This document shows, in pieces, positions 3,397-26,213 of a DNA stretch of 39,401 nucleotides. The notes under the pieces were generated by a model. It did no database searches. It saw nothing but the letters and a program-made list of their open reading frames with translations, and was not told the DNA's origin. The position numbers and the translations under genes are program-made. Origin of the DNA: Oscillospiraceae bacterium (lineage in GTDB: Bacteria; Bacillota; Clostridia; Oscillospirales; CAG-272); contig SVQT01000016.1 of the NCBI GenBank assembly GCA_015065215.1, positions 1 through 39,401 of the forward strand, in the 5' to 3' direction. Numbering within the stretch: position 1 is the stretch's first letter; each line of letters begins with the position of its first letter.

Positions 3397-3422
3397 TTGA
3401 CAAAATTGGTTTTCGTTAGCAA

Positions 3423-3460
3423 CAAAGCACCCTGACGGCATTTGCCGTCAGGGTGCTTTG
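3423..3460. terminator. Bidirectional terminator between convergent M20 peptidase and hpf
   Basis: caaagcaccctgacggca-tt-tgccgtcagggtgctttg perfect stem. Confidence 0.8.
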
Positions 3461-3465
3461 AGATT

Positions 3466-3990
3466 TTATTCTTCCGCGATGATCAGGCCGTAATCGCCTG
3501 CCTTGCGGCGGTAGACCACGCAGGGCTCGTTTGTTTCGGCGTCACGGAAGACAAAGAACTGATGCTCCAGCAGGTTCATTTGCAAAATGGCTTCTTCTAC
3601 CGACATGGGCTTGATGGGGAAGGATTTGGTGCGGATTTTGAACTCGCCCTCTTCCTCCTCGTCTACATCATCGGGCAGGGGACTTTCAAAGGCACCGCTG
3701 CGCAAGCGCTTTTCCAGTCTGGTCTTGTTTTTACGGATCTGCCGCTCCAGCGACTCCATCGCTTCATCGATCGCGTTCTGAAAGCTCTCGGCACCCTCCT
3801 CACTGCGGAAGATGGTACCGCCGTAGTTGATGGTGATTTCTATATATTGCAGATCGTGCCTACAGCTGTAGACCACGATCGCCTCCGCGTCGTCGCCAAA
3901 GAAACGATCGAATTTGGCTAATTTCTTCTCGGTCAGATCCTTGAGGGATTGACGAACGGTCATTTGCTTTCCGCTAACAGTCATTTTCAT
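3466..3990 (-). CDS. hpf: Ribosome hibernation-promoting factor, long form
   Basis: MKMTVSGKQMTVRQSLKDLTEKKLAKFDRFF...EAIVVYSCRHDLQYIEITINYGG...; C-terminal EEAILQMNLLEHQFFVFRDAETNEPCVVYRRKAGDYGLI is the long-HPF tail. Start moved from 4044 to 3990. Confidence 0.93.
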   Translation of the reverse strand: MKMTVSGKQMTVRQSLKDLTEKKLAKFDRFFGDDAEAIVVYSCRHDLQYIEITINYGGTIFRSEEGAESFQNAIDEAMESLERQIRKNKTRLEKRLRSGAFESPLPDDVDEEEEGEFKIRTKSFPIKPMSVEEAILQMNLLEHQFFVFRDAETNEPCVVYRRKAGDYGLIIAEE

Positions 3991-4147
3991 AGCAATTCCG
4001 CCTTTCTGTAACCGTAGGGTGCCGCGGGGAAGCCAAGCGGACACCTCCTCGGGTTTACAATTTCATTATAGCACATCTTTTGTGAAAAATAAATAGGTTT
4101 TTCGAAAAAAAATGAAAAAAATTGTGAAAAATTTCTGTTTTTCTGTC

Positions 4148-4183
4148 AAAAAACGCTCTGCGTCGCGACGCAGAGCGTTTTTT
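4148..4183. terminator. Rho-independent terminator
   Basis: aaaaaacgctctgcgtc-gc-gacgcagagcgtttttt. Confidence 0.8.
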
Positions 4184-4187
4184 GAGA

Positions 4188-4997
4188 TCAAAGCTCCTTT
4201 GCCCACTTGATGGCCAGCTCCACCCAGCAAGCGCAGTGTGGGTTGAGCAGATTTTCACTGCCCTTGGCGGTCTGCTCGTTGCAAAGGGCAAGGCCGTGGG
4301 GGCCGTTGGGGAAGATGTGCAGCTCGAAGGGTACCTTGGCTGCGGTCATGGCCTCTGCCATGAGCAGGGCGTTTTGCACAGGTACGCAGTTGTCATTGAA
4401 GGTGTGCCAGATAAAGGCGGGGGGCGTGGTCTCGTTGACGTGCAGCTCCAGCGAGAAGCGGTTTTCCTCCTCCTTGGTGGGGGTCTTGGTGCCGCAGAGC
4501 CTGTGGATCGAGCCCTTGTGTGCCCACTCACCCGCGGTGATCACTGGGTAGCACAAAATCATGCCGTTGGGGCGGTTGATCCCCTCTGGCGCTCCCTTTT
4601 GTATATCGGCCAAAACGGGGCTGTTCCAAAGCACGCCGGCGCTGGCGGCAAGATGTCCGCCTGCTGAGAAGCCGCAGGTGAAAATGCGATCCGGGTCGAT
4701 ATGATACTCCGGCGCGTGCTCGCGCACGTGCTTGATAGCCAGGGCAACCTGTTTTAAGGGGGCGTAATCCTTGGCGCCCTCGCCAACGCTATAGCGCAGG
4801 ATAAAGGTGGCAAAGCCCGCGGCAAGGAACTGGGTGGCGATCGGCTCTGCCTCACGGTCAGAGAGCGCGCCGTAGCCGCCGCCGGGGCAAACGATGACGG
4901 CCTGCCGGGGGGTGAGCTTTAGCTCGGCGGTGTTAGAAACGCAAATAGGGGTCAGGGTGGCATCCTGATGGCCAAGGGCAATGGTTTGGTAGATCAT
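4188..4997 (-). CDS. Alpha/beta hydrolase (acetyl esterase / acyl hydrolase type)
   Basis: CPGGGYGALSDREAEPIA, GFSAGGHLAAS nucleophile elbow, DNCVPVQNAL, FPNGPHGLAL catalytic His region. Confidence 0.87.
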   Translation of the reverse strand: MIYQTIALGHQDATLTPICVSNTAELKLTPRQAVIVCPGGGYGALSDREAEPIATQFLAAGFATFILRYSVGEGAKDYAPLKQVALAIKHVREHAPEYHIDPDRIFTCGFSAGGHLAASAGVLWNSPVLADIQKGAPEGINRPNGMILCYPVITAGEWAHKGSIHRLCGTKTPTKEEENRFSLELHVNETTPPAFIWHTFNDNCVPVQNALLMAEAMTAAKVPFELHIFPNGPHGLALCNEQTAKGSENLLNPHCACWVELAIKWAKEL

Positions 4998-5009
4998 AGC
5001 GGTTACTCC

Positions 5010-6017
5010 TTATGCATTGTTTTTTACCGTGCGGCGTTGGATGAGCTTAGTGGGTAAGATGATTTGCTCTTTTTGGGTGGCGTTTTCCTCGATCTTGCTC
5101 CAGATCAGCTCCGCGGCGGCGGTCGCCATTGTTTTTTTGGAAACGCTGACTGAGGAGAGCGCGGGGGAAAAGGAAAAATCAGAGCAGATGTTGTCAAAGC
5201 CCACCACGGAAAGATCGTTGGGGACCGACTTGTTCATATCCTCTAATACGCGGATCGCCTCATAGGCCAGCAGATCACTGAAGGTGATCAGGCCGGTGAC
5301 CTCTGGGTGCGCCATGAAAAAGCGGTGCATCTGGGCGCGGTTGCTGCTGTCTGTTTTCACCGAAAGCGTGAGCAGCCGGCCTTCTGACAGAGGGAGCTTG
5401 CGCTCCGCGTGCGCGCGGCGTATGCCTTCAAGCCGTTCCTTTGCCGCCGAGATGCGGAGGTCGCCGTTAAAAAAGGCGAGATGGCGGTGCCCCGCGTCAA
5501 AGAGATGGCTGGCCGCCAGATAGCCGCCTAACGCGTCATCGCAGACCACATAATCGGCATCGGTGCCGTCCTGCCTTCTGCCGATCAGGCAAAAGGGGAC
5601 GCCGGTGCTTTTCAGATACGCGAGATTGTCTTCGTCCCCGGCAGCTGGGCAAAGAAGGATGCCATCCGCGTTTTGCGCCAATGCCGCATGAATGGCCTCA
5701 CGCTCAATGGCCGGATCCTCATCGGTATTGAGCACAAAGACGGTATAGGATTTTTGCCTGAAAAACGCCTCAATGCCCCGGAAAATAATAATGAAATTGG
5801 GGTTTGCCACATCCGGCAATATCAAGGCGATGGTGCGACTGCGCCCCGAGCGCAGTCCGCTGGCGGCAGTGTTGCGGATATAGCCCATTTCGGCGGCAAT
5901 TTTGCGGATCTCCGCGCGGGTGCCGGCGGCAATATCGGTCTTGCCGGAAAGGGCGTGTGACACCGTATTGATCGAATAACCGGTTCGTTGGGCAATGTCC
6001 TTTAGCGTAACCTTCAC
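5010..6017 (-). CDS. LacI family transcriptional regulator
   Basis: N-terminal MKVTLKDIAQRTGYSINTVSHALSGKTDIAAGTRAEI HTH, periplasmic-binding-like C-terminal domain; directly upstream of the hydrolase on the same strand. Confidence 0.93.
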   Translation of the reverse strand: MKVTLKDIAQRTGYSINTVSHALSGKTDIAAGTRAEIRKIAAEMGYIRNTAASGLRSGRSRTIALILPDVANPNFIIIFRGIEAFFRQKSYTVFVLNTDEDPAIEREAIHAALAQNADGILLCPAAGDEDNLAYLKSTGVPFCLIGRRQDGTDADYVVCDDALGGYLAASHLFDAGHRHLAFFNGDLRISAAKERLEGIRRAHAERKLPLSEGRLLTLSVKTDSSNRAQMHRFFMAHPEVTGLITFSDLLAYEAIRVLEDMNKSVPNDLSVVGFDNICSDFSFSPALSSVSVSKKTMATAAAELIWSKIEENATQKEQIILPTKLIQRRTVKNNA

Positions 6018-6096
6018 CAGCGCCGCCTCCCTCTTGGTTTGTTTTTTTCATTGTATCACATTTGATGCCGTTTGGCAAGATTTTTTTCTCCCCCTC

Positions 6097-6124
6097 TTGA
6101 CATTTGCGCCCAAGGTGCTATAAT
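6097..6124 (+). promoter_or_regulatory. Sigma70-type promoter of folT-folC
   Basis: TTGACA (6097-6102), 16 nt spacer, TATAAT (6119-6124). Confidence 0.75.
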
Positions 6125-6134
6125 GTATATATCT

Positions 6135-6240
6135 TGAAGAGTAAAAGCTGTGGCGTCAAGTGCCGACGGGACGGGGAGTTGCCGGTCGGACGAAGGGCAA
6201 AAAAGTTTGTTCCGCGGTCACCGCTTTGCATCCCGCTTCA
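6135..6240 (+). ncRNA. Tetrahydrofolate (THF) riboswitch, class I-like
   Basis: P1 tgaag/cttca pairing closes the element; internal core signatures gagta, gcgtcaagtg, cgggacggggagttg, cgaag, ccgcggtcaccg and gcatcccgct match the folT-type THF aptamer; located directly upstream of a folate ECF S-component. Confidence 0.88.
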
Positions 6241-6304
6241 TCCAAAGAATTGAGAGCGAACGCCTCCTTTTTTCGATGAAATTCGGGAAAGGGAGGTTTT
6301 TGAT

Positions 6305-8188
6305 ATGCAACATGAAGCAAAAGCGGCCGCTTGCCGCCCCGGTAAACGCGGTTTCACACACCAGCTGCGTCGCGACTTGACGGTTTTTGGCAATTTACGG
6401 GTCCTTTGCCTTGCGGCAATGCTGGCGGCAATGGGCGTGGTATTGGGGTATATTGCCAAATTGCTTTTTGGTACGGGGCCCCTGCGCATCACCTTTGAAA
6501 ATCTGCCGATCATATTCGGCGGTGTCACCTTCGGCCCCTTTATGGGGGCCGCCATCGCGCTGATTTCCGATCTTTGCAGCTGTCTTTTTTCGGGGCAGGG
6601 TCCCAACCCCTTGATTGCGGTTGGCTCCGCTTCTATTGGCTTGCTTTCCGGCTTTTTGGGGAATTACCTTTTCCGCCGCCGCCGCTTTTTTCCTTTGCTT
6701 TTGGTAGAGCTGCTGACCCACCTCGTTGGCTCGGTGACGGTAAAATCACTGGCACTGCATGCAATGGGCTATGCCTGGCCGCTCTTACTCCCCCGTATTC
6801 CGATCTATATCGGCATCGCCTGCTGTGAGGCGGCGCTGCTGCGTGTGCTGTTGCAAAGCCAGCATTTGATACAGTTGCTGGAGAAAGTTCATCCAAGCAA
6901 AAAGGAGCGCTTGACTATGACGTATGACGAGGCGATTGCCTATATCCATTCGGTCAGCTGGAAAGGGAGCCGGCCGGGGCTGACACGAATGACAGAGCTG
7001 CTTGGCAAATTGGGCAACCCGCAGGATAAGCTCCGTTTTATCCATGTGGCGGGTACCAACGGCAAGGGCTCCTTTTGCGCCATGACCGAGTCGATCCTGC
7101 GTGCCGCGGGCTATAAGACCGGACTGTTTGTTTCCCCCTATATCAAGGATTTCAATGAGCGCATCTGCGTTGCCGGTGCCCCCATTGGCAACGAGGACTT
7201 GGCAAGGGCAACCGCGATTGTGCGGCCGGTGGCGGACAGTATGGCGGATGCTCCCACTGAGTTTGAGCTGATCACCGCTATTGGCTTTGTGCATTTTCTC
7301 TCCTGCCAATGTGATATTGTCGTGCTGGAAACCGGCATGGGTGGTAGATTGGATTCGACCAATGTGATCAAAGCGCCGCTTTTTGCTGTCATTACCGGCA
7401 TCGCGATGGATCATATGTCCTTTCTCGGTGATACCGTAGAAAAAATCGCCGCCGAGAAGGCCGGCATCATCAAGCCCGGTGCCCCGGTGCTGTGGGGGGG
7501 CAGAGATGCCGCCGCCCGCCGGGTGATTGCCGATAGGGCCGCTGAAATGGGCTGTACGATGATTGCGACCGAAGATACCCCCCTGACGGTACGGGAAATG
7601 ACGCTTTCCGGTACGGTTGCCGACTATGGCGAGTGGCAGCAGGTGCGTCTGCCGTTGCTTGGCAGCTATCAACCGCGCAACCTTGCCAATGTATTGGCGG
7701 CAGTTCCCTTGATGCGCGGGGCAGGCCTTTCTGTTTCCGACGAGGCGGTGCGCGCGGGGCTTGCCACGGCGCGCTGGCCCGGCCGCTTTGAAAAGCTTTG
7801 TGAGAACCCGCTGATTTTTTCTGACGGTGCCCATAATCCCGAAGGGGTGGAGGCGGCGGTAGAGAGCATCAAGACCTATTTTCCCGGCGAGAAGGTGTTG
7901 CTTCTTTTAGGCGTGATGGCGGATAAGGACTATCGCGGCATGGTAGAGGCGCTGGCTCCTGTTGCCGCCGAGGCGTTCACTCTGACCCCCGATAATCCCC
8001 GTTCGCTTCCCGCCGCTGATTTCGCGAAGGCGTTTGCCGAGGGCGGCGTCCCCGCCACTGCCTTTGACACGGTTGAAGAAGCGGTCCGCACCGCGGTGGC
8101 AAGGGCCAAAGAAACCGGCAAACCGCTGATCTCGCTGGGCTCGCTTTATATGTATTGCGAAGTGACCAACGCCCTTGAAAAGCTCTGA
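6305..8188 (+). CDS. Fused folate ECF transporter S-component (FolT) - folylpolyglutamate/dihydrofolate synthase (FolC)
   Basis: Residues ~1-200 are a hydrophobic FolT-like S-component (LAAMGVVLGY, FGGVTFGPFMGAAIALISDLCSCLF); from MTYDEAIAYIHS onward a complete FolC (HVAGTNGKGS, LFVSPYI, ETGMGGRLDSTN, MDHMSFLGDT, DGAHNPEG). One uninterrupted 627-aa ORF. Confidence 0.9.
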   Translation: MQHEAKAAACRPGKRGFTHQLRRDLTVFGNLRVLCLAAMLAAMGVVLGYIAKLLFGTGPLRITFENLPIIFGGVTFGPFMGAAIALISDLCSCLFSGQGPNPLIAVGSASIGLLSGFLGNYLFRRRRFFPLLLVELLTHLVGSVTVKSLALHAMGYAWPLLLPRIPIYIGIACCEAALLRVLLQSQHLIQLLEKVHPSKKERLTMTYDEAIAYIHSVSWKGSRPGLTRMTELLGKLGNPQDKLRFIHVAGTNGKGSFCAMTESILRAAGYKTGLFVSPYIKDFNERICVAGAPIGNEDLARATAIVRPVADSMADAPTEFELITAIGFVHFLSCQCDIVVLETGMGGRLDSTNVIKAPLFAVITGIAMDHMSFLGDTVEKIAAEKAGIIKPGAPVLWGGRDAAARRVIADRAAEMGCTMIATEDTPLTVREMTLSGTVADYGEWQQVRLPLLGSYQPRNLANVLAAVPLMRGAGLSVSDEAVRAGLATARWPGRFEKLCENPLIFSDGAHNPEGVEAAVESIKTYFPGEKVLLLLGVMADKDYRGMVEALAPVAAEAFTLTPDNPRSLPAADFAKAFAEGGVPATAFDTVEEAVRTAVARAKETGKPLISLGSLYMYCEVTNALEKL

Positions 8189-8274
8189 TCCCCATTGGGG
8201 CAATCAAAACCAAATCTTTCCAAGGGGCTGATTCATGAGCGCCGAACAAAGAACACACGAAAAAGCATAAAATG

Positions 8275-8316
8275 AAGCCGCTTTGCCATCAAAAAAGTGA
8301 TGGCAAAGCGGCTTTT
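8275..8316. repeat. Hairpin element copy 1 (terminator-like) of a family recurring three times in the window
   Basis: aagccgctttgccatc-aaaaaagt-gatggcaaagcggctt perfect 16-bp stem with T-run. Confidence 0.9.
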
Positions 8317-8488
8317 TAACTATGCGTTTCACGCGTGGTTTTGATTTCGGATCAGCGGTTGACGACAAAGCAAAGCCCCCGTGCTATAATGGCAATGGGA
8401 GGGGGACTCCCAATAGAGCGCCCCGGGCGCGGAAAGGAGAGATGGCCACTGAACGTGTGCCAAAAAACAAGAAAAAGGAGGATTTTTT

Positions 8489-9271
8489 ATGCCACAAATT
8501 GTGTGCAACATTGCGCTGGATGTTGCGGTGAATAACATCGAGCAAATGCTGAGCGCAAAGCAGGGGGATACCCAAAACCGTTTGCTTTGCGTCACATTCA
8601 CCGATTGCGGAAAACCGCTGCCGATCGAAAAGGATGCGGTGGTTTTGCTGAATGTAAAAAGCGGGGAGGCGCGCGCTTCTTTTGAAGGGACAGTCACCAA
8701 GGAGGGGAAGGCACTTTTTGCTATTCCGGATTTTGTGCTTGTTAAGGCCGGCAGTGTGCAATGCGATGTCTCTGCCATCACTCCAAACGGCGGCCGACTG
8801 ACAACCGCCGCCTTTGGTATTTTGGTCGAGCCGGCCATCTGCCCCTCGGGAGAGGTGAGTAACGATGCCGCCGTTTCGGATCTCGCGGCCGATTTCATCG
8901 CCTCACAGCGGCTTTTGACACTGACCCCGCAGCCGCGCGAGACGGGCTATGTGATTGCCCCCGAGATTAATCACAAGTACTGCCTGGATCTGTCTGACAG
9001 CCGCTATGCCCCCGGTGGCGTATGGGCGAATTTCCGGCTGGAGCTGCCTGTGCCCACCAACGCCACAAAGGAGAATTGGATTTTGATCTATTGTCATGCT
9101 CCGATTACCGCCGAGGCGGGTGCTGTTTCGATTGATTTTGGCAGTGATTGCCTGTTTGCGGACGCGAGAGCGCCAATGGTTTCACTTTCTGATTTTGATA
9201 TTGTTTGTACCTATTCACGTGGGGCCGGTTGCTGGCAGGTCGGCGTGGTGCAATATGCTAAACAGGGGTAA
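8489..9271 (+). CDS. Phage baseplate upper protein (BppU N-terminal-like) homolog
   Basis: IALDVAVNNIEQMLSAKQGDTQNRLLCVTFTDCGKPLPIEKDAVVLLNVKSG resembles the N-terminal domain of BppU-family phage proteins; RBS aaaaaggagga. Confidence 0.55.
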   Translation: MPQIVCNIALDVAVNNIEQMLSAKQGDTQNRLLCVTFTDCGKPLPIEKDAVVLLNVKSGEARASFEGTVTKEGKALFAIPDFVLVKAGSVQCDVSAITPNGGRLTTAAFGILVEPAICPSGEVSNDAAVSDLAADFIASQRLLTLTPQPRETGYVIAPEINHKYCLDLSDSRYAPGGVWANFRLELPVPTNATKENWILIYCHAPITAEAGAVSIDFGSDCLFADARAPMVSLSDFDIVCTYSRGAGCWQVGVVQYAKQG

Positions 9272-9276
9272 ACGGT

Positions 9277-10482
9277 ATGAGTTTTTCTTTAAAACAGCAT
9301 AGCCTGCTGCGTGAAAGCCGCCGCCCGCTTGCCTATTCGGTATCCTTTCCGGATCCCACTGTGCTCACCGGTGTGAGAGAGGATATGGCGGTAGGCATGG
9401 TGGCCAATGTCGCCATTGGCGACAATGTGATTGTGCGCAACGATTTTGACAGAGTCCCTATTTTCCAGCGGCCGATTTTCAATGCGACCTGGGATGGCGG
9501 AAAGGGGCGTTGGGTGGATTTTGTCGCCCGCGGTGAGCCGGGCTTTACGTATCATCCATCCGACCCTTACCGTGAGGTAATCTATCGCTGTCAGCCCTTT
9601 TGGTATCAGATAGAGCTGCGGGAGGGAACCGGCCCTGCCAGGGTCTCTGTTTCGCCGTACCCCTTGGAGGGGTATACCTTGGCGCCAATGTTCCCCAATG
9701 AGCGGGACTATATCTACCGTCCTGTTTTTGAAATGAGCGTGGGGAAGGACAATTTGCCGCATTCCCGTTCCAACCAGTGGGCGTTTCGCGGCAAAGGCTT
9801 GAGCGAAATTATGCAGTATGTAGCCGCTTATGATCCCCGTGCCAGAGTTGAGAGCGTTTTTGACTGGTTCAGTGACGCGCTGCTGTTGCTGGTGGAGTTT
9901 GCCACATGGGATCTTGCCTCGTATATGAGAGGGAACTTCACGCGCGAGGTCACCACTGGCTTAGGGGTTACTCACACCATTGCAAGCTCGGGATGCCTCC
10001 TGGACGGCGCGCCCATTGTGTGGCGCGGCAAAGAGAACGCTTGGCAAAATGTTTGCTCCTTCCTTTGTGATATTTTAATCCAAAAGCATATCGCCGCGGA
10101 TGGCAGCTATACCACCACCATTTGCCACCTGCCAGATCTGAAATATTTTGACGGCACCATCAATGAGCATTATGTAGAGATCGCCCCTTATTTTTCCAAT
10201 ATTATCAGAGGTCAATTCCCAGTTGGCGGCTTTGATATGAAAAAAGGCGTTTTCTATCCTTCCAGCGGCATTACGGGGGATACGGCCATCAAATCCTATG
10301 CCTATATCCAAAGCCAGCTGGGCGAGGAGTTTCCCATTGTGGTTGGTGTTGGCGGCGGTACCAGTTCGCAAATGCTCCCAGCTGATGTGAACGGTTCGCC
10401 CTTCCATTGGGAGGCTGTGCAAAAAGAGCAGTCCAGAGAGCAAAATTTTGGCGCCAGACTGATTTTGGACGAGGCGCTGTAA
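9277..10482 (+). CDS. Phage tail/adhesin-like protein with putative C-type-lectin-like C-terminal region
   Basis: Downstream of the BppU-like gene with a 5-bp gap; DWFSDALLLLVEFATWDLASYMRG and terminal FGARLILDEAL resemble CLec-type phage tail adhesins. Confidence 0.5.
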   Translation: MSFSLKQHSLLRESRRPLAYSVSFPDPTVLTGVREDMAVGMVANVAIGDNVIVRNDFDRVPIFQRPIFNATWDGGKGRWVDFVARGEPGFTYHPSDPYREVIYRCQPFWYQIELREGTGPARVSVSPYPLEGYTLAPMFPNERDYIYRPVFEMSVGKDNLPHSRSNQWAFRGKGLSEIMQYVAAYDPRARVESVFDWFSDALLLLVEFATWDLASYMRGNFTREVTTGLGVTHTIASSGCLLDGAPIVWRGKENAWQNVCSFLCDILIQKHIAADGSYTTTICHLPDLKYFDGTINEHYVEIAPYFSNIIRGQFPVGGFDMKKGVFYPSSGITGDTAIKSYAYIQSQLGEEFPIVVGVGGGTSSQMLPADVNGSPFHWEAVQKEQSREQNFGARLILDEAL

Positions 10483-10501
10483 AAATACGAAGCGAGGCTG
10501 A

Positions 10502-10676
10502 GCACACCTGCCACGTGGCAGGTGTGCAGTGATATAAATCCCTTGCGGGATTGGCGATATTCCCTTTGAGAGCGATATTTGCCTATGACAAGCGATATGT
10601 GCTGTGGGGCGTAGGGGGGATTTATATCATATCGCAACCGAATGAAATGAGGTTGTATTGCATCGGGGCGCAAGCG
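10502..10676. repeat. Degenerate multi-hairpin palindromic intergenic element
   Basis: 26-bp perfect palindrome gcacacctgccacgtggcaggtgtgc (10502-10527), followed by 12-bp inverted repeat gatataaatccc (10531-10542)/gggatttatatc (10617-10628) enclosing three gcgatat repeats. Confidence 0.7.
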
Positions 10677-10856
10677 AAGATATAGCGCGTTTGCGGAGCA
10701 AACATATAAAGGGCATTTGTGACCACAAACGCAGTGCTTGTTCAAGTAAAGAGGACCGGAGAACGCAAAGGTTGTTATCCTTAACGGAAAAATAACCCGA
10801 AATCGAATAGGACTTGAAAAGGCTACCATTCCAACAATACGATATGAAATTATTTC

Positions 10857-10896
10857 AAAAGGAAGTGGATATGAGCCTTCACAACCACTTCCTTTT
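10857..10896 (+). terminator. Terminator-like hairpin at left edge of AT-rich island
   Basis: aaaaggaagtgg ... ccacttcctttt stem followed by T. Confidence 0.65.
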
Positions 10897-10930
10897 TAGA
10901 AAATGAATCTCGTTTAAATTAGGCCAAAAG

Positions 10931-10959
10931 TTGACTTTTTGTTTTGAAAATGGTATAAT
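10931..10959 (+). promoter_or_regulatory. Sigma70 promoter P1
   Basis: TTGACT - 17 nt - TATAAT. Confidence 0.7.
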
Positions 10960-11055
10960 AATTGTGAAAGAAAAGGAAAACTCTCGTTTGTTCGGTGTGA
11001 TTTTCATCAGTTGATAACAAAAACACATAAATTTAAAATATGTCTCTTTAAAGTC

Positions 11056-11084
11056 TTGATTTTTGGGAGAAAATATGTTATAAT
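11056..11084 (+). promoter_or_regulatory. Sigma70 promoter P2 of three-gene operon
   Basis: TTGATT - 17 nt - TATAAT, ~83 nt upstream of the 11167 ATG. Confidence 0.7.
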
Positions 11085-11166
11085 GTCTCATCTGTCGTGC
11101 GAAACAATATGTTACTTTCATCGTATACTAGTGTTGGCTAACAAAATGAAAAGAGGTTATGATTAA

Positions 11167-11382
11167 ATGAGAAAAACAACACAATCCCCCACAAAAGGAT
11201 TGACAATCCAAGAAACAGATAACTACAATGATGTAAATTTGGCTGCCTTGGATGCCCATATTGAACGGTCGCTTACTGGTACTGCGCGCCAAGTATATAC
11301 TTTAATCCAAGTTAATGCTCCGTGCAAAGTAACAGTTACCGAAAAAAGCCAAAAAAAGTTGGCGAAAGTTGTATTAAGCTAA
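11167..11382 (+). CDS. Hypothetical protein, 71 aa, first gene of AT-rich operon
   Basis: RBS-like aaaagagg upstream; two promoters in front; continues into downstream ORF with 4-nt gap. No family recognised. Confidence 0.6.
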   Translation: MRKTTQSPTKGLTIQETDNYNDVNLAALDAHIERSLTGTARQVYTLIQVNAPCKVTVTEKSQKKLAKVVLS

Positions 11383-11386
11383 TAAA

Positions 11387-12124
11387 ATGAGCAATCAGTT
11401 TGTCTTCCTAAGTCCTGTGTCAGTGTACGATGATAAGATTTTTACCCAAAAAAGGGCGACAGAATGGAAGCAACATATTCGAACGGCATATAATGTTATA
11501 TATCGTGGCTTGTTTGACAAGTTGGATAATTCAACAAAAGTTCGTTTTTTTGTGTGCAAATCTTTGGTAGATGAAGTTGTCGTTGATGCCATTATAGGCA
11601 TGCGAAAAATCATTGATAGTAGATATAATTCCATAGAAGATCCGAATTCTTTTAAGATTATTTCTTATTTGACTTATTGGTGGTTGAGGCACAAACCTGT
11701 AAGCATACATTACGGAAAAGACTTTTGCCTTGAGGACATAAAATTGAGCCCTACTCCCGAACTATCTGCAATGTCAGAGGAAAAGCGTGAGGAAGAAAGG
11801 CAAAAGGTCGTTTGGCAATTAAAACATATCAACGAGTTGATTGCGGTACAGATGTCTTTAACCTATATATTCGATTTTGAAAATCGCATATGTGACAATG
11901 CTTCTTGTAAAAGAGTGAAAAGGAAAGAAAAAGACAAATTCTGCTTTGAAACTTTCGATGAAATGCAGGAAGTTATAGTGAAAAAACTAACATATTACTT
12001 TTGTTATCGTACCGTAGCGCCCAAAATAATTGAGCATATTTTAGAAGGTTATACTTTTCATCCTGCTTGGGGATTAACTGGTTCACAATGGGCTAGTGCA
12101 AAAGTTGAAGGTGACGCACCGTGA
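11387..12124 (+). CDS. Hypothetical protein, 245 aa, unknown family
   Basis: AT-rich single ORF starting 4 nt after upstream stop; contains CDNASCKRVKRKEKDKFC cysteine cluster. No family recognised. Confidence 0.75.
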   Translation: MSNQFVFLSPVSVYDDKIFTQKRATEWKQHIRTAYNVIYRGLFDKLDNSTKVRFFVCKSLVDEVVVDAIIGMRKIIDSRYNSIEDPNSFKIISYLTYWWLRHKPVSIHYGKDFCLEDIKLSPTPELSAMSEEKREEERQKVVWQLKHINELIAVQMSLTYIFDFENRICDNASCKRVKRKEKDKFCFETFDEMQEVIVKKLTYYFCYRTVAPKIIEHILEGYTFHPAWGLTGSQWASAKVEGDAP

Positions 12125-15130: not shown

Positions 15131-15159
15131 TTGACAAAAAAAGCGTTTTATGGTATAAT
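15131..15159 (+). promoter_or_regulatory. Sigma70 promoter of the glycyl radical enzyme operon
   Basis: TTGACA - 17 nt - TATAAT, consensus hexamers and spacing. Confidence 0.85.
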
Positions 15160-15214: not shown

Positions 15215-17188
15215 ATGAACGAAAAACTGTATTCCTTTATTTTGAACAAAAAACATAGGGCCTTCCGTCACGAGGTTGACCGGGATTTTGCCACCGCCTT
15301 TTCCGCCGCGGGAACCCCGTATGCCGAGCGGATCACGGCCCGGTTTGAAGAGCTGATGGCGGCACAGGAGCCCCATATTTTGGAAGGGGAGCAGATCGTG
15401 CTGCTTCGCACCACCGCAAAGACCCCCGATGTGCTGACCGAGGCGGAGTGGGAGGCTTATCGTGCCGAGCACGGCTATGTGCATGAGCTGGGATATACCT
15501 CTAATCTTTGCGGTGACTATGCCGGTATCATTGCCGCCGGTCTGGATGCGATCCGTGAAACCGCGGATGCCTATGGCAAGCGTGAGATCGACGCTATCTT
15601 TGCCCTTTGTGACCGTTACATTGCCGAGGCGGAACACCTGGGGCGGCATGATGTTGTGGAGGTGCTGCGGCAGATTCCTCACAAGGGTGCCAGGACCTTG
15701 CGTGAGGCGTTGCAGTTTTTCCGCATTCTGCATTTCTCGCTTTGGCTGGAGGGGTGCTATCACAATACGGTAGGTCGTTTTGACCAGTACATGTACCCCT
15801 ATTTTGCGGGGGATCTTGCCACGGGGCGCCTCTCTGAGGCCGAAGCGGAGGCTTTGGTGGAGGATTTCTTCCTTTCCTTTAACAAGGATAGCGACCTTTA
15901 CCCCGGTGTACAGCAGGGTGACAACGGCCAGAGCATGGTGCTGGGCGGCTGTAACGCCGCGGGGGAGGACTGCTTCAACGCGCTGTCCGCCATTTGCCTG
16001 CGTGCCAGCAAAAAGCTTTTGATGATCGACCCCAAGATCAATTTGCGTGTATCGAAAAAGACCCCCATCGAGGTCTATCGCCTGGGCAGCGAGCTGACCA
16101 AGGCCGGCCTTGGCTTTCCCCAGTACAGCAACGACGATGTGGTGATCCCCGCCCTGAAGGCGATGGGTTATGCCCACGAGGATGCCTGTGACTATGTGGT
16201 TGCCGCTTGTTGGGAGTTCATTATTCCCAAATACGGCTATGAAATTGTCAATGCCGGCGCGCTCAATTTCCCGGCTGTGGTCAGCAAGGTAATTGAGGAA
16301 AAGCTGCCCAACGCTATGAGTTTTGAGGGCTTTATGGAAGATGTGGATGCCGCCGTGAAGCGTGAGGCCACCGCTATGACCGCCATGAAATCGGCGGCGC
16401 CCTTCCTGCCCTCCCCCTTGATGGATCTGCTGATTACCGAGCGCCGTTACCGCAACTTCGGCTTCCACGGTACCGGTATCGCCTCCGCGGCGGATGCGTT
16501 GGCGGCGGTGAACACCCATGTTTTTGAGAAAAAGGATGTTACGGTCGAAAGACTGCTGGCCGGTCTTGCGAGTGACTTTGCCACCGACCCCGATTTGCTC
16601 CGCTTGCTTCGCTATGAATCCCCCAAAATGGGCTGCGATAACGATGCGGTTGACAGCCTGGCTGTCCGCCTATTGGATGACTATGCTGACGGCCTTGCCG
16701 GGCACAAAAACGCGTACGGCGGCATCTACCGCGCCGGTACCGGCACCGCCATGTATTATCTGTGGCACGCCGCTGAGGTGGGCGCCACCGCAGACGGACG
16801 CCGCCGCGGAGAGCCCTTCGGCACCAATTTCTCCCCCAATCTGTTCGCCAAGATCGACGGCCCGACCTCGGTGGTCCGCTCCTTTACCAAGCCGCACACC
16901 GATAGGGTGTGCAACGGCGGTCCGCTGACGCTGGAGTTTGCCGCCTCGATGTTCAAAGCGCCTGACAGCATTGATAAGCTGGCCGAGCTGGTACGCTTCT
17001 TCGTGCGCAAGGGCGGACATCAGCTACAGCTCAACGCCGTGAATGCCGACAAGATGAGGGCGGCGCAAATGCACCCAGAGCAGTACGCCCAATTGGTGGT
17101 GCGCATCTGGGGCTGGAGCGCGTATTTCGTGGAGCTGGATAAAGAGTATCAGGATCACGTCATCGCCCGTCAGGAATATACCGTTTGA
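15215..17188 (+). CDS. Glycyl radical enzyme (pyruvate formate-lyase-like superfamily, non-PFL type)
   Basis: C-terminal VVRIWGWSAYFVELDKEYQDHVIARQEYTV contains the glycyl radical motif; AACWEF is the candidate catalytic Cys with Glu at +2; next gene is a GRE activase. Start moved from 15107 to 15215 (agaaaggaaacgcaATG). Confidence 0.92.
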   Translation: MNEKLYSFILNKKHRAFRHEVDRDFATAFSAAGTPYAERITARFEELMAAQEPHILEGEQIVLLRTTAKTPDVLTEAEWEAYRAEHGYVHELGYTSNLCGDYAGIIAAGLDAIRETADAYGKREIDAIFALCDRYIAEAEHLGRHDVVEVLRQIPHKGARTLREALQFFRILHFSLWLEGCYHNTVGRFDQYMYPYFAGDLATGRLSEAEAEALVEDFFLSFNKDSDLYPGVQQGDNGQSMVLGGCNAAGEDCFNALSAICLRASKKLLMIDPKINLRVSKKTPIEVYRLGSELTKAGLGFPQYSNDDVVIPALKAMGYAHEDACDYVVAACWEFIIPKYGYEIVNAGALNFPAVVSKVIEEKLPNAMSFEGFMEDVDAAVKREATAMTAMKSAAPFLPSPLMDLLITERRYRNFGFHGTGIASAADALAAVNTHVFEKKDVTVERLLAGLASDFATDPDLLRLLRYESPKMGCDNDAVDSLAVRLLDDYADGLAGHKNAYGGIYRAGTGTAMYYLWHAAEVGATADGRRRGEPFGTNFSPNLFAKIDGPTSVVRSFTKPHTDRVCNGGPLTLEFAASMFKAPDSIDKLAELVRFFVRKGGHQLQLNAVNADKMRAAQMHPEQYAQLVVRIWGWSAYFVELDKEYQDHVIARQEYTV

Positions 17189-17197
17189 TCAAAAAGT

Positions 17198-18028
17198 ATG
17201 CTAACGGGTCATATTTTCGACATCAAAGAGTTCTCGGTCAATGATGGTCCCGGCGTGCGCACCACTGTTTTTTTCAAGGGGTGTCCCTTGCGTTGCGTGT
17301 GGTGCCACAATCCTGAGGGGCTGGAGCCCGGCAGAGGCGTGTTGGTTCGCCAACGGGGCTGTCTGCAATGCGGCAGATGCCGGCAAGGCTGTGATCATCC
17401 GGATTGCAGGGGGCTTGAACGCTGTCTGCATGCCTGCCCGGCGGGACTGGTAGAGGAAATTGGCAAGGTGTGGGAGGTTGACGCCTTGGCCAAGCGCCTT
17501 TTGCGGGATGCGGATCTGTTTGAAAGCGCCGGCGGCGGTATAACGCTTTCCGGCGGGGAACCGCTGATGCAACACGCCTTTGCCGCCGCGCTTTTGCGAA
17601 AGCTGCCGGTGCACAAGGCCATCGAGACCTCCGGTTTTGCCAGCGCTGAGGTGTTTGACAAAATCATTGGTCTTGTGGACTACGTGATGATGGATATAAA
17701 ATTGGCCGATGGAGAAGCCCATCGCCGCTATACCGGCGCGGATAACCGCCCGATCTTAGAGAATTTTAAGCGCTTGCGCCAAAGCGGCAAGCCTTATCTT
17801 GTCCGTGTGCCGCTGATTCCCGGCATTACCGATACTGAGAAAAATTTGCGGGAAATCGCTACCATTGTGGGGGATTCGCCGGTAGAACTGCTCCCGTATA
17901 ACCGCATGGCGGGGGCAAAATACCCCTTGGTGGGGAAGACCTTCACCGATATGATAAAACAAGGCCAAAACAGCGAGATCGACCTTTCGCTGTTTCAAAA
18001 CGCTACGCTGCGCAGTGACGCGCATTAA
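17198..18028 (+). CDS. Glycyl radical enzyme activating enzyme (radical SAM)
   Basis: FFKGCPLRCVWCHNPE (CxxxCxxC), ferredoxin-like Cys cluster CLQCGRC...CDHPDC...CLHACP, GGGITLSGGEPLMQ. Confidence 0.95.
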   Translation: MLTGHIFDIKEFSVNDGPGVRTTVFFKGCPLRCVWCHNPEGLEPGRGVLVRQRGCLQCGRCRQGCDHPDCRGLERCLHACPAGLVEEIGKVWEVDALAKRLLRDADLFESAGGGITLSGGEPLMQHAFAAALLRKLPVHKAIETSGFASAEVFDKIIGLVDYVMMDIKLADGEAHRRYTGADNRPILENFKRLRQSGKPYLVRVPLIPGITDTEKNLREIATIVGDSPVELLPYNRMAGAKYPLVGKTFTDMIKQGQNSEIDLSLFQNATLRSDAH

Positions 18029-18037
18029 GGAGGAGCT

Positions 18038-18718
18038 ATGAAAAAAGCAGTCATTTTTGATTTTAATGGCACTTTGTTTGCGGATTCCGACAAGCACCGT
18101 GAGGGCTGGAAACGCTTTTTGGCCAAGTACGGCTTGGACGTGGACGACGAGGAGCTGCGCACCCATTATCTGGGGCGTACGAATCCTTATATTCTCAAGC
18201 GCGTATTCGGCGAGGACCTTTCGCTCGAGTTGATCGCAGAGCGCACGCTGGAGAAGGAGGCCACCTACCGTCAATGCTGCATGGAGGATCCCGCCAGCTT
18301 CCACCTGATCGCGGGCGCTACTGCCTTTTTGGACTATCTGAAGGCGAGCGGCGTGGATTTCACCATCGCCACCGGCTCGGAATACTCCAACGTGGATTTC
18401 TATTTTGACAAGTTTGAGCTGGGCCGCTGGTTTGACCGCTCCCGCGTGGTACTGGATGACGGTAGCTTTCCCGGCAAGCCCGCCCCCGACGGCTATCTGC
18501 GTGCCGCCAAGGTGCTGGGGCGCGATCCTGCCGATTGCGTCGTGTTTGAGGATTCCATCTCCGGCGTGCGCGCCGCCCACGCGGCCGGCATCGGCAAGAC
18601 CGTTGCCATTACCACCGAGGTCAGCGCCGAGCGGCTCATGTCCTATCCGGGCGTGGTGATCGCCGAGCCGGATTTTACCAACATGATCGAGATTTTTGAG
18701 GGGGTTCTTTCCCAATGA
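18038..18718 (+). CDS. HAD family hydrolase (beta-phosphoglucomutase/phosphatase-like) with DFNGT motif I
   Basis: AVIFDFNGTLF, GSEYSNVDFYFDKF, GKPAPDGYLRAAKVLG, VFEDSISGVRAAHAAGI. Confidence 0.9.
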   Translation: MKKAVIFDFNGTLFADSDKHREGWKRFLAKYGLDVDDEELRTHYLGRTNPYILKRVFGEDLSLELIAERTLEKEATYRQCCMEDPASFHLIAGATAFLDYLKASGVDFTIATGSEYSNVDFYFDKFELGRWFDRSRVVLDDGSFPGKPAPDGYLRAAKVLGRDPADCVVFEDSISGVRAAHAAGIGKTVAITTEVSAERLMSYPGVVIAEPDFTNMIEIFEGVLSQ

Positions 18719-20754
18719 TCCTGCAAAGCATCAACGTAGCGGTAAAAACCGCGGACGGTAACGAATTTTCGTTACATAAGGGCAAGGGCGGCGGCTATTC
18801 CTGCCGCTGGGCCGAGGCCAATGTGGGCTATACCGCGCTGGACGGTGGCTATGTGCTGTGGGCAAATGCCGGGCTGAAAAAGGAGACCGCGCGCTTTGAC
18901 GCGCAGGATGCGATCACGCTGCGCTTTGCGCAAGGGAACGTCCCTTACCTTGCTTACTATATGCGCTGCTCCTATTGGTGCCGCCCCGCCTTTGGCGTGG
19001 ATCTGACGGCGGTGCCGAAGCGCACGCAAGCGCTTCTTTATAAGGAGGGAAGCACCTGGCGCGTGCTCTGGTCGCTTTGCGGCGATGTGTTCAACTGCAC
19101 CTTGCAGGGCGGCGAGCAGGGGCTGGAGGCGAAGATCGCCCCCTGGTCGGATGGCGAGGCTGTACTGGAGAAAATGCCTGTTTTACTGCATTTTTCCGGC
19201 AAAGAGCCCCACACGGTATTGGAAAAGACAGCAAAAGCCGCCGCAAAGCTGCTGAACGGCAGAGTGACTACGGTCTATGAAAAGCCATTCCCTGAACTGT
19301 TTGAATACCTGGGCTGGTGCTCCTGGGATGCTATGCGCGTTCACATCAGCGAGCAGGGCTTGTTGGTTAAGGTGGCAGAGCTCAAGGAAAAGGGCATCCC
19401 TGTGCGCTGGTGCATTCTGGACGATATGTGGGCCCACGTGAAGGGCATCAAGGGCTTGCCCGAGGAGATGACGACACACGATATGGTCAAGATCATGCAC
19501 CAGAGCACCCTGCACGCGCTGGAGGCCGATCCCGACCGTTTTCCAAACGGCCTTGCGGGCGCCATCGAAAAGCTGCATAACGAGGGATTGCGGGTGGGCG
19601 TGTGGTATCCCACCACCGGCTACTGGAAGGGCGTTGACCCCGAGGGACCTCTTGCCGCCGAGCTTGCCGACATTCTGGAAATGCTCCCCAACGAAAACCT
19701 TCTGGTAAAGCCTAACGCCGAGGCGGCGAACCGCTTTCACAATGCGATACAGGATATGCTAAAGGATGCGGGCGCCGACTTCGTCAAGGTGGATAATCAG
19801 ACCCATTATAAGAACAAATACAGCCCCGTACATCCGGTGGGTGTTGTGGCAAAGGCGGTTCAGAATGCCATCGAGGATGTGACCGAGGCGCATTTCGGTA
19901 ACGCGCTGATCAACTGCATGGGTATGGGCAACGAAAGCATGTGGAACCGCCGCAAAAGTGCCGTTTCCCGTTGCTCGGGTGACTTTCAGCCCGAGAACCG
20001 TGAATGGTTTGCCAAGCACATCCAGCAATGCGCCTACAATTCCTTGTTCCAAGGTCAGTTCCATTACAGCGACTGGGATATGTGGTGGACCGATGACGAG
20101 CAGGCCCTGAAAAACAGTGTCTGCCGCGCCGTTTCCGGCGGACCCATTTATGTAAGTGATAAGATCGGACGCTCCCGCCCTGAGGCGCTAAAGCCGCTGT
20201 GCTTTGCCGACGGCCGGATCCTGCGTGCCGACGGGCAGGCCACCCCGATTGCGCGTTGCCTGCTGGAAAACCCCACCGTCTCTCACGCGCCGCTCTTTAT
20301 TTTCAATAAGGCCAACGGCTGTGGCGTGGTGGCGGCCTTTAATATTCACGCCGAGAACCAAGCGCAGGAAGGGTGGCTGTCACCTGCCGACTTAAAGCTA
20401 CCGGCGGGCCGCTATCTGGTACGTGAGCAGCTGCGTGGCGAGACCCGCGTGCTGGAAAAGGGAGAAACGCTTTCGGTGTCTCTTGCCGATAACGACGCTT
20501 TCGCGTTGTATATCTTCTATTCGCTCAAGGGGAATGTTACCCCTCTTGGCCGTGTGGATAAATTCATTTCCCCCAAGGCCTTGCTCGGTCGCAATGCCAA
20601 GGGTGTCAAGCTCTATGAGGGCGGCCCCGTGGCCTTTGTCGGTGTGGATTTCATCGCCACCAACAAGCGTGAGCGCGTAGAAGGCGAAAAAATGGGTAAT
20701 ATAACGGTTTTCGCACTGGAAAAGGATGAGACCGCAATCCGTTATTTGCAGTAA
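18715..20754 (+). CDS. GH36/Sip1-related alpha-galactosidase (raffinose synthase-like)
   Basis: YLGWCSWDAM, CILDDMW, GVWYPTTGYW, ADFVKVDNQ (nucleophile region), HYSDWDMWW (acid/base region); overlaps HAD stop by 4 nt. Confidence 0.87.
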   Translation: MILQSINVAVKTADGNEFSLHKGKGGGYSCRWAEANVGYTALDGGYVLWANAGLKKETARFDAQDAITLRFAQGNVPYLAYYMRCSYWCRPAFGVDLTAVPKRTQALLYKEGSTWRVLWSLCGDVFNCTLQGGEQGLEAKIAPWSDGEAVLEKMPVLLHFSGKEPHTVLEKTAKAAAKLLNGRVTTVYEKPFPELFEYLGWCSWDAMRVHISEQGLLVKVAELKEKGIPVRWCILDDMWAHVKGIKGLPEEMTTHDMVKIMHQSTLHALEADPDRFPNGLAGAIEKLHNEGLRVGVWYPTTGYWKGVDPEGPLAAELADILEMLPNENLLVKPNAEAANRFHNAIQDMLKDAGADFVKVDNQTHYKNKYSPVHPVGVVAKAVQNAIEDVTEAHFGNALINCMGMGNESMWNRRKSAVSRCSGDFQPENREWFAKHIQQCAYNSLFQGQFHYSDWDMWWTDDEQALKNSVCRAVSGGPIYVSDKIGRSRPEALKPLCFADGRILRADGQATPIARCLLENPTVSHAPLFIFNKANGCGVVAAFNIHAENQAQEGWLSPADLKLPAGRYLVREQLRGETRVLEKGETLSVSLADNDAFALYIFYSLKGNVTPLGRVDKFISPKALLGRNAKGVKLYEGGPVAFVGVDFIATNKRERVEGEKMGNITVFALEKDETAIRYLQ

Positions 20755-20796
20755 AATCAATACCGTTTCGGTACTATTTTAAAGGAGAGTGTAAAG

Positions 20797-22317
20797 ATGA
20801 AAAAACTGTACGCGATGCTCCCCGAGGAGCTTGGCACCATCAATCCCGATATTTACGGGCATTTTTCCGAGCATATCGGCGGCGTGTTCTACGACGGCCT
20901 GTGGGTCGGTGAAGACTCTGATGTCCCCAACATCAAGGGCTTTCGTAAGGATGCCATTGAAAAGCTGCGCGCCATCAACATTCCGGTGCTCCGTTGGCCG
21001 GGCGGTTGCTTTGCCGAGGTCTACAACTGGCGCGACGGCATCGGCCCCCGCGATCAGCGCCCCGTGCGCCACAACTGGTGGGATTATGAGGACGGCCGCT
21101 TGGAGAGCAATCAGGTGGGTACGCACGAATTCATTGACCTGTGCCGTCTGATCGGCGCCGAGCCTTATTTTGCCGCCAATATCACCTCGATGACCCCGAT
21201 GGACATTCGCGACTGGATGGATTACTGCAACTCTCCCCGCGGTACCACGACTCTCGCGCTGGAGCGTGAAAAGAACGGCTCGCCCGAGCCCTTCAACGTC
21301 AAGTACTGGGGCGTTGGCAACGAGACCTGGGGTGGCGGCGGTGAGATGACCCCCGAGGTCTACGCGCACGAGTACCGCAAGTACGCCGCCGTGCTCTATA
21401 ACCTGACCCGCTTTATGGGCGGTGAGCTGTTCGTATCCGGTGCCAACGGTATGGACGGCGATGATTGGACCAAGCGTTGCCTTGGTGAGCTGCGCAAGGT
21501 ACATTACAGTAAGATGGCGGGCTATACTCTCCACTACTACTGCGGCGGCATGGAGTGCCGTGGCTTTAACAGCGATGAGTGGTACGAGCAAATGCGCCGT
21601 GCCGACAAGATGCAGCAGGTCATTGACAAGGCCTGGGGCTTTATCGTGGGCTACGGCATGCAGGCAGAGGCGAAGCTCGTTATCGACGAGTGGGGCGCCT
21701 GGCACAGACGCGGCAGGCCCTCGCAGGGCGGTAGCGGCCCCTCGAACGGTATGAATCTGTACGAGCAGCAGTGTACCATGCGTGACGCGCTGGTTGTGGG
21801 CTGGAACCTGAATATGTTCAATAACAACTGCGATAAGATCCGTATGACCAACGTGGCACAGCTGATGAATAACATCCAGAGCCTGTTCCTGGCCGGTGGC
21901 GAGCATTGCATTACCACCCCCGCCTATCATGTGTTTGATATGTTCAAGGGGCACATGGGTGGCACCGCGATCCGCACCGCCATTGACAATCCCTCCATTA
22001 CCTACAAGTCCCCCAAGGACGGCCAGAACAAGGAGGTCAAGCAGTTCACCACCTCTGCCAGCGTCAAGGACGGCGTGATGACCCTGACGTTGACCAACGC
22101 AAGCCTGAAAAAGGACGAGACCATCAGCCTGGAGATCGTTGGTGGCAAGGCCGCGGGTGATGCTAAGGTAACGGTGCTCCACGCCGAGAACCCCGACACG
22201 GTCAATACCTTTGAAGAGCCTGACAAGGTTGTGCCCGCCGCGGCTGTGGAAATGCCCCTGCGCTACATCAAGGTGCCCCGTGCCAGCGTGGTGACCGTTG
22301 AGGTGAAACTGGCATAA
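20797..22317 (+). CDS. Alpha-L-arabinofuranosidase, GH51
   Basis: YGHFSEHIGGVFYDGLWVG, RWPGGCFAEVYNWRDGIGPRDQRP, YWGVGNETWG (acid/base), KLVIDEWGAWH (nucleophile). Confidence 0.94.
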   Translation: MKKLYAMLPEELGTINPDIYGHFSEHIGGVFYDGLWVGEDSDVPNIKGFRKDAIEKLRAINIPVLRWPGGCFAEVYNWRDGIGPRDQRPVRHNWWDYEDGRLESNQVGTHEFIDLCRLIGAEPYFAANITSMTPMDIRDWMDYCNSPRGTTTLALEREKNGSPEPFNVKYWGVGNETWGGGGEMTPEVYAHEYRKYAAVLYNLTRFMGGELFVSGANGMDGDDWTKRCLGELRKVHYSKMAGYTLHYYCGGMECRGFNSDEWYEQMRRADKMQQVIDKAWGFIVGYGMQAEAKLVIDEWGAWHRRGRPSQGGSGPSNGMNLYEQQCTMRDALVVGWNLNMFNNNCDKIRMTNVAQLMNNIQSLFLAGGEHCITTPAYHVFDMFKGHMGGTAIRTAIDNPSITYKSPKDGQNKEVKQFTTSASVKDGVMTLTLTNASLKKDETISLEIVGGKAAGDAKVTVLHAENPDTVNTFEEPDKVVPAAAVEMPLRYIKVPRASVVTVEVKLA

Positions 22318-22349: not shown

Positions 22350-22387
22350 AAAAGCCGACAGCCATGCATGGCTGTCGGTCTTTTTTT
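22350..22387. terminator. Terminator at end of GRE/GH operon
   Basis: aaaagccgacagccat-gc-atggctgtcggtcttttttt. Confidence 0.8.
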
Positions 22388-24752: not shown

Positions 24753-26213
24753 TCAAAGGCTATTCTGATTTTTGTCCTTGATGTAGGCCAGCAGCTCGTC
24801 CGGGAAGTTGACGGTCATGCCGTCGGCACCGGCATCAAAGACAGCCTTCATATGATCGCGGTTCACCCCCCAGGCGCGGACGTTAAAGCCGGCGGCGTGC
24901 CATTCACGCACACGCTCGGCGGTTATCAGGTCGGCTGGCGGACAGAGCTCGTCGCCGCCGATGGCCGCCAATGCCGCAAGGGTATCGTCGGTTACCTCCT
25001 TGACCAGCCAGCCCACACGGAATTCGGGCGCAAGCTGCTTGAACGCCTTGATGTCATCGAAGCGGAAGGAGGTTACAAAGGTTTTTTTGCGCATGTCAAA
25101 GCGTCGCAGGAGTGCGGCTACATCCGCCCCGATCTCCTGTTGCTTGAGCTCGATGGCAAAGGAGATGTCGCGGTGGGCGAAATGCGTGAGAAAATCCTCA
25201 AAGGCCACAATCTTATCGGTGAGGCCGTTTTTGCTTACATGCAGTTCTTGTAGCTCCGCGAAGGTCATCTCCTCCACAGGGGTATCAAGCCCCTCGCCGC
25301 ACATCCTGGCGGGGGTGGCGTCGTGATGGAGGATCAGCACGCCATCCTTGGTGCGGCGCACATCGGTCTCAATGCCGTTCGCCCCCATAAAAATGCCGGT
25401 GTAAAAGGCAAGCATGGTGTTTTCAGGGGCATATTCACTGGCGCCCCGGTGAGCGTAAGTTACAAAGTGCTCGCGGTTTTCTGCCGCCAGATGCTTCCAC
25501 AGCTTTGGTTCCAATGTGTCCAGAAAGCGCAGCCAGATGCCGTTGCTTTCATCCACAAAAGGATTGACGGCAGGATTTTCTTTGAGTAATGCGGCATTTT
25601 CTCGGGTGTGATTTTGCCCCGCGTGGTTGCCCACAAACAGATCCACATGCTCCTTTTTCAGCTGTTCGATCGAGGTAAGAAAGTGTTTTCGCATCGAAAA
25701 AGGCACGTCGTATTTTTGCAGGTAGTGGCGCATGAGCTGAGGTGTCCCCGCGCCGCCGAACATGCCGCAGCGCAGTCGCTTACCCTTTTCCTCTACATAA
25801 AAGAAGAAGGAATAGGTGCCCTCGGTATGCCCGGGGGTATGCTTGCAAAGGACCTCGGTCTCCCCCAGCTTTACCGTCATGCCGTCGGTGTAGTAGACGT
25901 CGGGGGTAAAGCCCTTGATGTATTTGACGTCTTCTCTGGCAAGGTAGGTCTTGGCGCCGGTCAGTGCCACCAGCTTGGCGGTGGCGTCGGTGTGATCGTA
26001 ATGACCGTGGGAGTGCAGAATGATCTTGACCTCCCGGATGTCAAAGCCAAGCTCGGCTACCGCGTCTAAAATCGTTTCGTAATTATCCTCATAGCCGGTG
26101 TCGATCAGCATCAGGCCCGCGGTTGTGACAAGCAAATGGCAGGAGGCCTTTTGCGTTCCTACAAAGTAAAGGTTGCCCGCCATGCGAAAGGGCGCGATGT
26201 CTGATAGTGCCAT
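24753..26213 (-). CDS. Two-domain protein: metallo-beta-lactamase fold hydrolase fused to glycerophosphodiester phosphodiesterase (GDPD)
   Basis: N-terminal ILHSHGHYDHTD and HTPGHTEGTYSF (MBL); C-terminal YAHRGASEYAPENTMLAFYTGIFMGANGIETDVRRTKDGVLILHHDATPARM (GDPD). Confidence 0.92.
   Translation of the reverse strand: MALSDIAPFRMAGNLYFVGTQKASCHLLVTTAGLMLIDTGYEDNYETILDAVAELGFDIREVKIILHSHGHYDHTDATAKLVALTGAKTYLAREDVKYIKGFTPDVYYTDGMTVKLGETEVLCKHTPGHTEGTYSFFFYVEEKGKRLRCGMFGGAGTPQLMRHYLQKYDVPFSMRKHFLTSIEQLKKEHVDLFVGNHAGQNHTRENAALLKENPAVNPFVDESNGIWLRFLDTLEPKLWKHLAAENREHFVTYAHRGASEYAPENTMLAFYTGIFMGANGIETDVRRTKDGVLILHHDATPARMCGEGLDTPVEEMTFAELQELHVSKNGLTDKIVAFEDFLTHFAHRDISFAIELKQQEIGADVAALLRRFDMRKKTFVTSFRFDDIKAFKQLAPEFRVGWLVKEVTDDTLAALAAIGGDELCPPADLITAERVREWHAAGFNVRAWGVNRDHMKAVFDAGADGMTVNFPDELLAYIKDKNQNSL

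Follow-up and report, generated by a model that had tools for sequence, protein, structure and literature searches.

We analyzed a 39,401-nucleotide contig of an Oscillospiraceae bacterium (SVQT01000016.1, assembly GCA_015065215.1; the whole contig is referred to here as the window) that carries, between positions 15215 and 22317, five intact open reading frames (ORFs) on the same (+) strand, the first of which encodes a glycyl radical enzyme (GRE) belonging to an uncharacterized subfamily. The GRE gene (15215..17188, encoding 657 aa) is followed by genes for a GRE-activating radical SAM enzyme (17198..18028; PF04055, and 262 bits against TIGR02494, which exceeds the cut-off of 174), a beta-PGM-like, HAD-superfamily phosphatase-like protein (18038..18718; PF00702, the best NCBIfam match being TIGR02009, below its cut-off), a Raffinose_syn/Sip1 GH36-like glycosidase (18715..20754; PF05691 at 169 bits; 7exf, E = 2.5e-41), and a GH51 alpha-L-arabinofuranosidase (20797..22317; PF06964; 2vrk, E = 3.7e-104) that has the GNE and IDEWG motifs in its sequence. 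The Sip1/GH36-like protein keeps a candidate catalytic pair of aspartates (VKVD and RxSxD), aligned with 7exf. Together the genes make up an intact operon, in which the gaps are, in order, 9, 9, -4, and 42 nt, which bears out an initial annotation of this DNA that had described a co-directional cluster of five genes with small gaps or overlaps. That annotation had also proposed a single consensus promoter and a single terminator, and both are present on the + strand: a sigma-70 promoter sequence (15131..15159; TTGACA-N17-TATAAT with TG before the -10, a consensus match only, at 12 of 12 positions) and a strong intrinsic terminator (22354..22379) in which an 11-bp stem is followed by a T run (folding z = -6.4).

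Judged by its sequence, the GRE is an enzyme of the eliminase type and not a pyruvate formate-lyase (PFL). It matches the PFL-like barrel (PF02901) and the C-terminal glycine radical domain (PF01228) of Pfam, and the two motifs quoted in the initial annotation, AACWEFIIP and RIWGWSAYF, were located at C332-E334 and G633, respectively. C332-W333-E334 (16208..16216, +), predicted to supply the thiyl cysteine and a glutamate acting as general acid/base, lines up with C-V-E in both PflD and glycerol dehydratase, and the Cys-x-Glu is present in 109/109 members of the family that we delimit below. G633, the predicted site of the glycyl radical in the radical loop (17102..17128, +; PF01228), aligns with the radical glycine of PflD, YbiW, and PflB, and is found in 107 of the 109 members, the exceptions being one gap and one Asp. 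(In one family member, from a rumen metagenome-assembled genome (L038, 8504-10504), VWDWS replaces VWGWS, so that the radical glycine is an aspartate; the enzyme is dead, or else the sequence contains an error.) PflB has CCVS at the position where all 109 members have ACWE, and the earlier argument that CWE speaks against PFL activity therefore held up. Of note, PflB shares the fold superfamily and the radical glycine with the GRE of the window, has CC in place of CWE, and matches it with an E-value of only 1.4e-13.

An AlphaFold2 model of the GRE made with an alignment of 20 family members as input (pLDDT, the per-residue confidence, 91.1; pTM 0.91) matches the folds of glycerol dehydratase, PflD, CutC, and propanediol dehydratase, with a template modeling (TM) score of about 0.87 for the top match. 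By sequence, PflD and glycerol dehydratase are the nearest solved chains, with PflD the nearest in the PDB. Alignment and fold together would place C332 and E334 at the radical site with G633. The initial annotation had remarked that the GRE, at about 657 aa, is short for its class; the length stands, and the difference from PflD results mainly from two internal deletions, one of ~75 aa in the region of residues 65-164 and another of ~18 aa in that of residues 346-412. Truncation at the N-terminus was rejected as the cause, since R65 still aligns with R73 of PflD.

No curated isofunctional family in NCBIfam takes in the GRE, which scores far below the cut-offs for CutC, HypD, HpsG, HpfG, HPAD, IAD, and PFL. 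In particular, it reaches 288 bits where the broad PFL2 subfamily requires 678, and no full-length GRE equivalog (cut-offs of 994 or more) gives it more than 242 bits. It does have close relatives: a scan of a sequence collection returned about 50 with 36-86% identity, after which identity falls to about 30%, and profile scores over hundreds of genomes were bimodal, with full-length members at about 800-1113 bits and other GREs at 418 bits or less. In a tree of 132 rows, the 106 family rows formed one clade with a support of 100 and a long stem, and none of PflD, YbiW, HypD, propanediol dehydratase, or PflB fell inside it. (Note that a few rows represent one genome from two releases.) No characterized reference lies within this clade of about 105 proteins; neither the scores nor the tree place the GRE in a characterized isofunctional family, a placement that would have counted against the initial annotation. 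A description of the family was absent from the open-access literature searched, and the subfamily appears to be new, its kind (GRE eliminases, sugar-type ones included) being known.

Members of the family occur in Clostridia, Bacteroidales, Thermoguttaceae (Planctomycetota), Treponema, Bacilli, and Gastranaerophilales. Among sampled genomes, the GRE was found in about 40/196 from the taxonomic family to which the window belongs and in about 20/391 from its class; cultured isolates that carry it include Diplocloster, Ructibacterium, and Clostridium transplantifaecale. The genome of the window itself encodes a second member, of a different subclade and with 49% identity, on contig C49 (L207, 7795-10686), where an activase gene lies just upstream and the neighbors are housekeeping-like genes instead of glycosidase genes.

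Nineteen residues are invariant in the 109 members (N97, D225, D227, G235, D236, G238, D272, K274, N276, A331, C332, W333, E334, N346, N414, R506, G510, Y515, and E574), and W632 and W634, each gapped in one row, are otherwise invariant; most of these residues are rare or missing among 26 other aligned GREs, with about 15 positions combining invariance in the family with a difference outside it. A loop specific to the family, N223-S240 (NKDSDLYPGVQQGDNGQS; 15881..15934, +), is invariant or nearly so in the 109 members and differs elsewhere. Residues 228-238 of this loop form the only segment of the model with a pLDDT below 50, and may constitute a lid that becomes ordered on substrate. The pocket of glycerol dehydratase, which we take to comprise H164, Y339, D447, and Y640, aligns with the family-invariant residues N97, G238, N346, and G510, respectively. 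At one of the two tyrosine positions, the first, PflD carries a Gly, and at the other YbiW carries a Ser. Because both tyrosines are glycines in the family, the alignment suggests a larger substrate and a pocket that is larger still than those of PflD and YbiW.

The closest known parallels are the E. coli/Streptococcus enzymes PflD (8yjo, 8id0) and YbiW (8yjn, 8id7), whose substrates are of the sugar type and which share with the GRE of the window the fold, the CxE motif, the radical glycine, and a dedicated activase; moreover, a HAD phosphatase gene lies near the gene for YbiW, as it does in the window. The GRE of the window is, however, about 100-150 aa shorter, is only 28% identical to PflD and 25% identical to YbiW, and differs in having N97 in place of His, W333, G238 together with G510, and W632/W634. 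The B12-independent glycerol dehydratase (1r8w) and propanediol dehydratase (5i2g, 9rco) give the top fold match (TM 0.87) and share the Cys and Glu; near family GREs no microcompartment genes were seen, and the loci are sugar loci. HypD, CutC, IslA, and HpsG/HpfG are CxE enzymes of the same superfamily whose contexts differ from those of the family, and the GRE falls far below the equivalog cut-offs of all those that have NCBIfam models.

The gene neighborhoods of relatives point to sugars. Across 112 contexts, the activase gene adjoins the GRE gene in about 85, and in many relatives these two genes stand alone as a pair adjoining an AraC regulator gene (AraC-type regulators, recognized by eye from their C-terminal sequence, are present in 29 contexts). 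A Sip1/GH36-like protein, the commonest linked glycosidase, is encoded in 17 contexts, LacI in 21, GH51 or a GH51-like protein in 13, a CUT2-type sugar ABC ATPase in 10, a XylE-like permease in 7 (Bacteroidales loci), an FGGY kinase in 6, and a HAD protein in only 4. The glycosidases at these loci are varied (GH51/43/127/31/3), and CUT2-type monosaccharide ABC importers are encoded in an operon with the GRE at L028, L040, L056, and L057; at L028 and L056, the binding proteins are similar to RbsB and to the allose- and xylose-binding proteins, with scores far below cut-offs. In the sampled taxonomic family, genomes that carry the GRE are enriched in Sip1 (19/40 vs 22/156, p = 2e-5; the genomes are not phylogenetically independent). 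The common thread of the contexts is free sugars from plant polysaccharides, with no single sugar dominating. The initial annotation is therefore right on the enzyme class and on a sugar context, which recurs in relatives, but too narrow on the partners: GH36 and GH51 do not define the context, and HAD and GH51, present in few loci, were rejected as core partners. (At L036, L041, L047, L164, and L183, several large proteins of about 480-970 aa without a Pfam match are encoded in an operon with, or adjoining, family GREs; these are possible unrecognized glycoside hydrolases.)

These findings suggest that the family probably uses radical chemistry on a sugar or sugar alcohol, either to eliminate one of its hydroxyl groups or to open one of its C-O bonds. 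More specifically, we think it rather likely that the GRE is an eliminase-type enzyme that acts on a free, monosaccharide-sized sugar or polyol, with C-O loss to give a deoxy carbonyl sugar. The activase would install a radical on G633 that, by homology, would pass to C332, whose thiyl would abstract a hydrogen atom from a carbinol carbon of the sugar or polyol; E334 would then assist the departure of the neighboring C-O bond, leaving the deoxy carbonyl sugar. The substrate would derive from plant hemicellulose or galactoside side chains, and in the window would be freed by the Sip1/GH36-like and GH51 enzymes. We favor a free sugar or polyol over a sugar phosphate because relatives adjoin genes for monosaccharide ABC importers, XylE-like permeases, LacI or AraC regulators, and varied glycosidases. 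Several points weigh against this proposal. We infer both the substrate and the product of the GRE; neighboring genes vary widely between loci, and thus indicate no single sugar; the pocket mapping is one of aligned residues; a His that nearly every other aligned GRE has (H164 of glycerol dehydratase) is Asn97 in the family; and the tryptophans beside the catalytic cysteine and at the radical loop could reflect a different chemistry.

An alternative with precedent is that the GRE, like YbiW and PflD, is a C-O lyase that acts on an intracellular sugar phosphate or anhydrosugar phosphate. PflD is the nearest chain in the PDB, a HAD gene adjoins the GRE gene in the window just as ybiV lies beside ybiW in E. 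coli, and the titles of PDB entries 8id0 and 8id7 give PflD and YbiW with anhydrosugar phosphates. We nevertheless consider this alternative doubtful, as no gene for a phosphotransferase system was seen beside any annotated family member, the linked importers are of ABC and MFS types expected to bring in unphosphorylated sugars, HAD proteins are encoded at only 4 loci, and the pocket residues differ in a protein of such low identity to either enzyme. (PflD and YbiW have reportedly been studied in connection with anhydroglycolysis.) The sugar radical chemistry that the initial annotation regarded as undescribed is, because of these anhydrosugar-phosphate entries, less unprecedented than claimed. 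Rather improbable, in our view, is a route in which a pentitol or pentose is converted to a 2-deoxypentose that is phosphorylated by a xylulokinase-like FGGY kinase and then cleaved by DeoC to glyceraldehyde-3-phosphate and acetaldehyde. Genes for DeoC (above cut-off), a XylB-like FGGY kinase, a Zn-dependent alcohol dehydrogenase (Zn-ADH), and an SGL lactonase do accompany the GRE gene in Diplocloster (L039, L040) and Ructibacterium (L208/L222). The Ructibacterium cluster holds two other GREs, however, and over the 196 genomes DeoC is no commoner where the GRE is present (29/40 vs 116/156, p = 0.84); nor was DeoC found in the genome of the window (84.6% complete) or in several near-complete GRE genomes. 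As a general role, the DeoC route was accordingly rejected, and it is at most lineage-specific.

Abstraction of hydrogen beside an anomeric carbon could also expel an aglycone, such that a disaccharide or anhydro sugar is cut directly by a radical glycoside or ether lyase. Such a reaction would resemble the mechanism of ring C-O cleavage that we presume for YbiW and PflD. The titles of their PDB entries, the apparently enlarged pocket, and the glycosidases constantly alongside would fit, but an oligosaccharide substrate is not what one would expect from importers of the monosaccharide type and from operons of activase and GRE alone, and we find this reading very improbable. That the GRE is a PFL, a C-N or C-S lyase, or a decarboxylase, for which a generic PFL-family annotation could be cited, is scarcely credible given ACWE in place of the CCVS of PflB, scores far under the equivalog cut-offs of PFL, CutC, HypD, HpsG/HpfG, HPAD, and IAD, and the sugar contexts. 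Finally, we rejected the idea that the GRE replaces L-arabinose isomerase: AraA is more frequent in genomes with the GRE (9/40 vs 11/156, p = 0.008), and there is therefore no signal of replacement. AraA was not found in the genome of the window, in which XylA and FGGY kinases were found; because that genome is 84.6% complete, the absences of AraA and DeoC carry little weight.

Many abundant gut GREs lack a known function (2024 review, PMC11574389). The family described here has sharp limits and a clear signature, and is found in many gut bacteria that ferment plant fiber, cultured isolates included. Its constant sugar context narrows the search for a substrate, and a new radical sugar reaction is therefore directly testable. 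We see it as possible, if somewhat short of probable, that this widespread family catalyzes a radical reaction not yet described, with a free sugar, a polyol, or a glycoside as its substrate (dehydration to a deoxy sugar or radical C-O cleavage); if true, this would provide an entry into fermentation that avoids the isomerase and kinase steps normally used.

Other GRE loci were noticed in the course of this work. Contig C27 of the genome of the window (L221) encodes three more divergent GREs in tandem (2733-4736, 4822-7023, and 9195-11630), together with two activases (1895-2797 and 8026-8916), AraC-like regulators, and a large protein that lacks annotation; among these GREs, SACCSFDLD is present in one and GCYE in two, and the two that were scanned match no curated GRE family. 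In Ructibacterium gallinarum (G078:C13), one cluster encodes three GREs of different lineages along with DeoC, GH43, Zn-ADH, a xylulokinase (above cut-off), an SGL lactonase, Sip1, and GH36-like and GH2-like proteins, and its two non-family GREs match no curated family. In E. coli K-12 (4616000-4622000), the gene for YjjI, an uncharacterized DUF3029 protein that we take to be a GRE, directly adjoins deoC, echoing the GRE-DeoC linkage of two gut genera. On a plasmid of a Hymenobacter isolate from air (L218, 3710-6168), a GRE-like protein is split over two overlapping ORFs that adjoin a gene for a Dyp-type peroxidase. Elsewhere in the window, an ORF on the - strand (24753-26213) encodes a metallo-beta-lactamase-like domain fused to a glycerophosphodiester phosphodiesterase domain.

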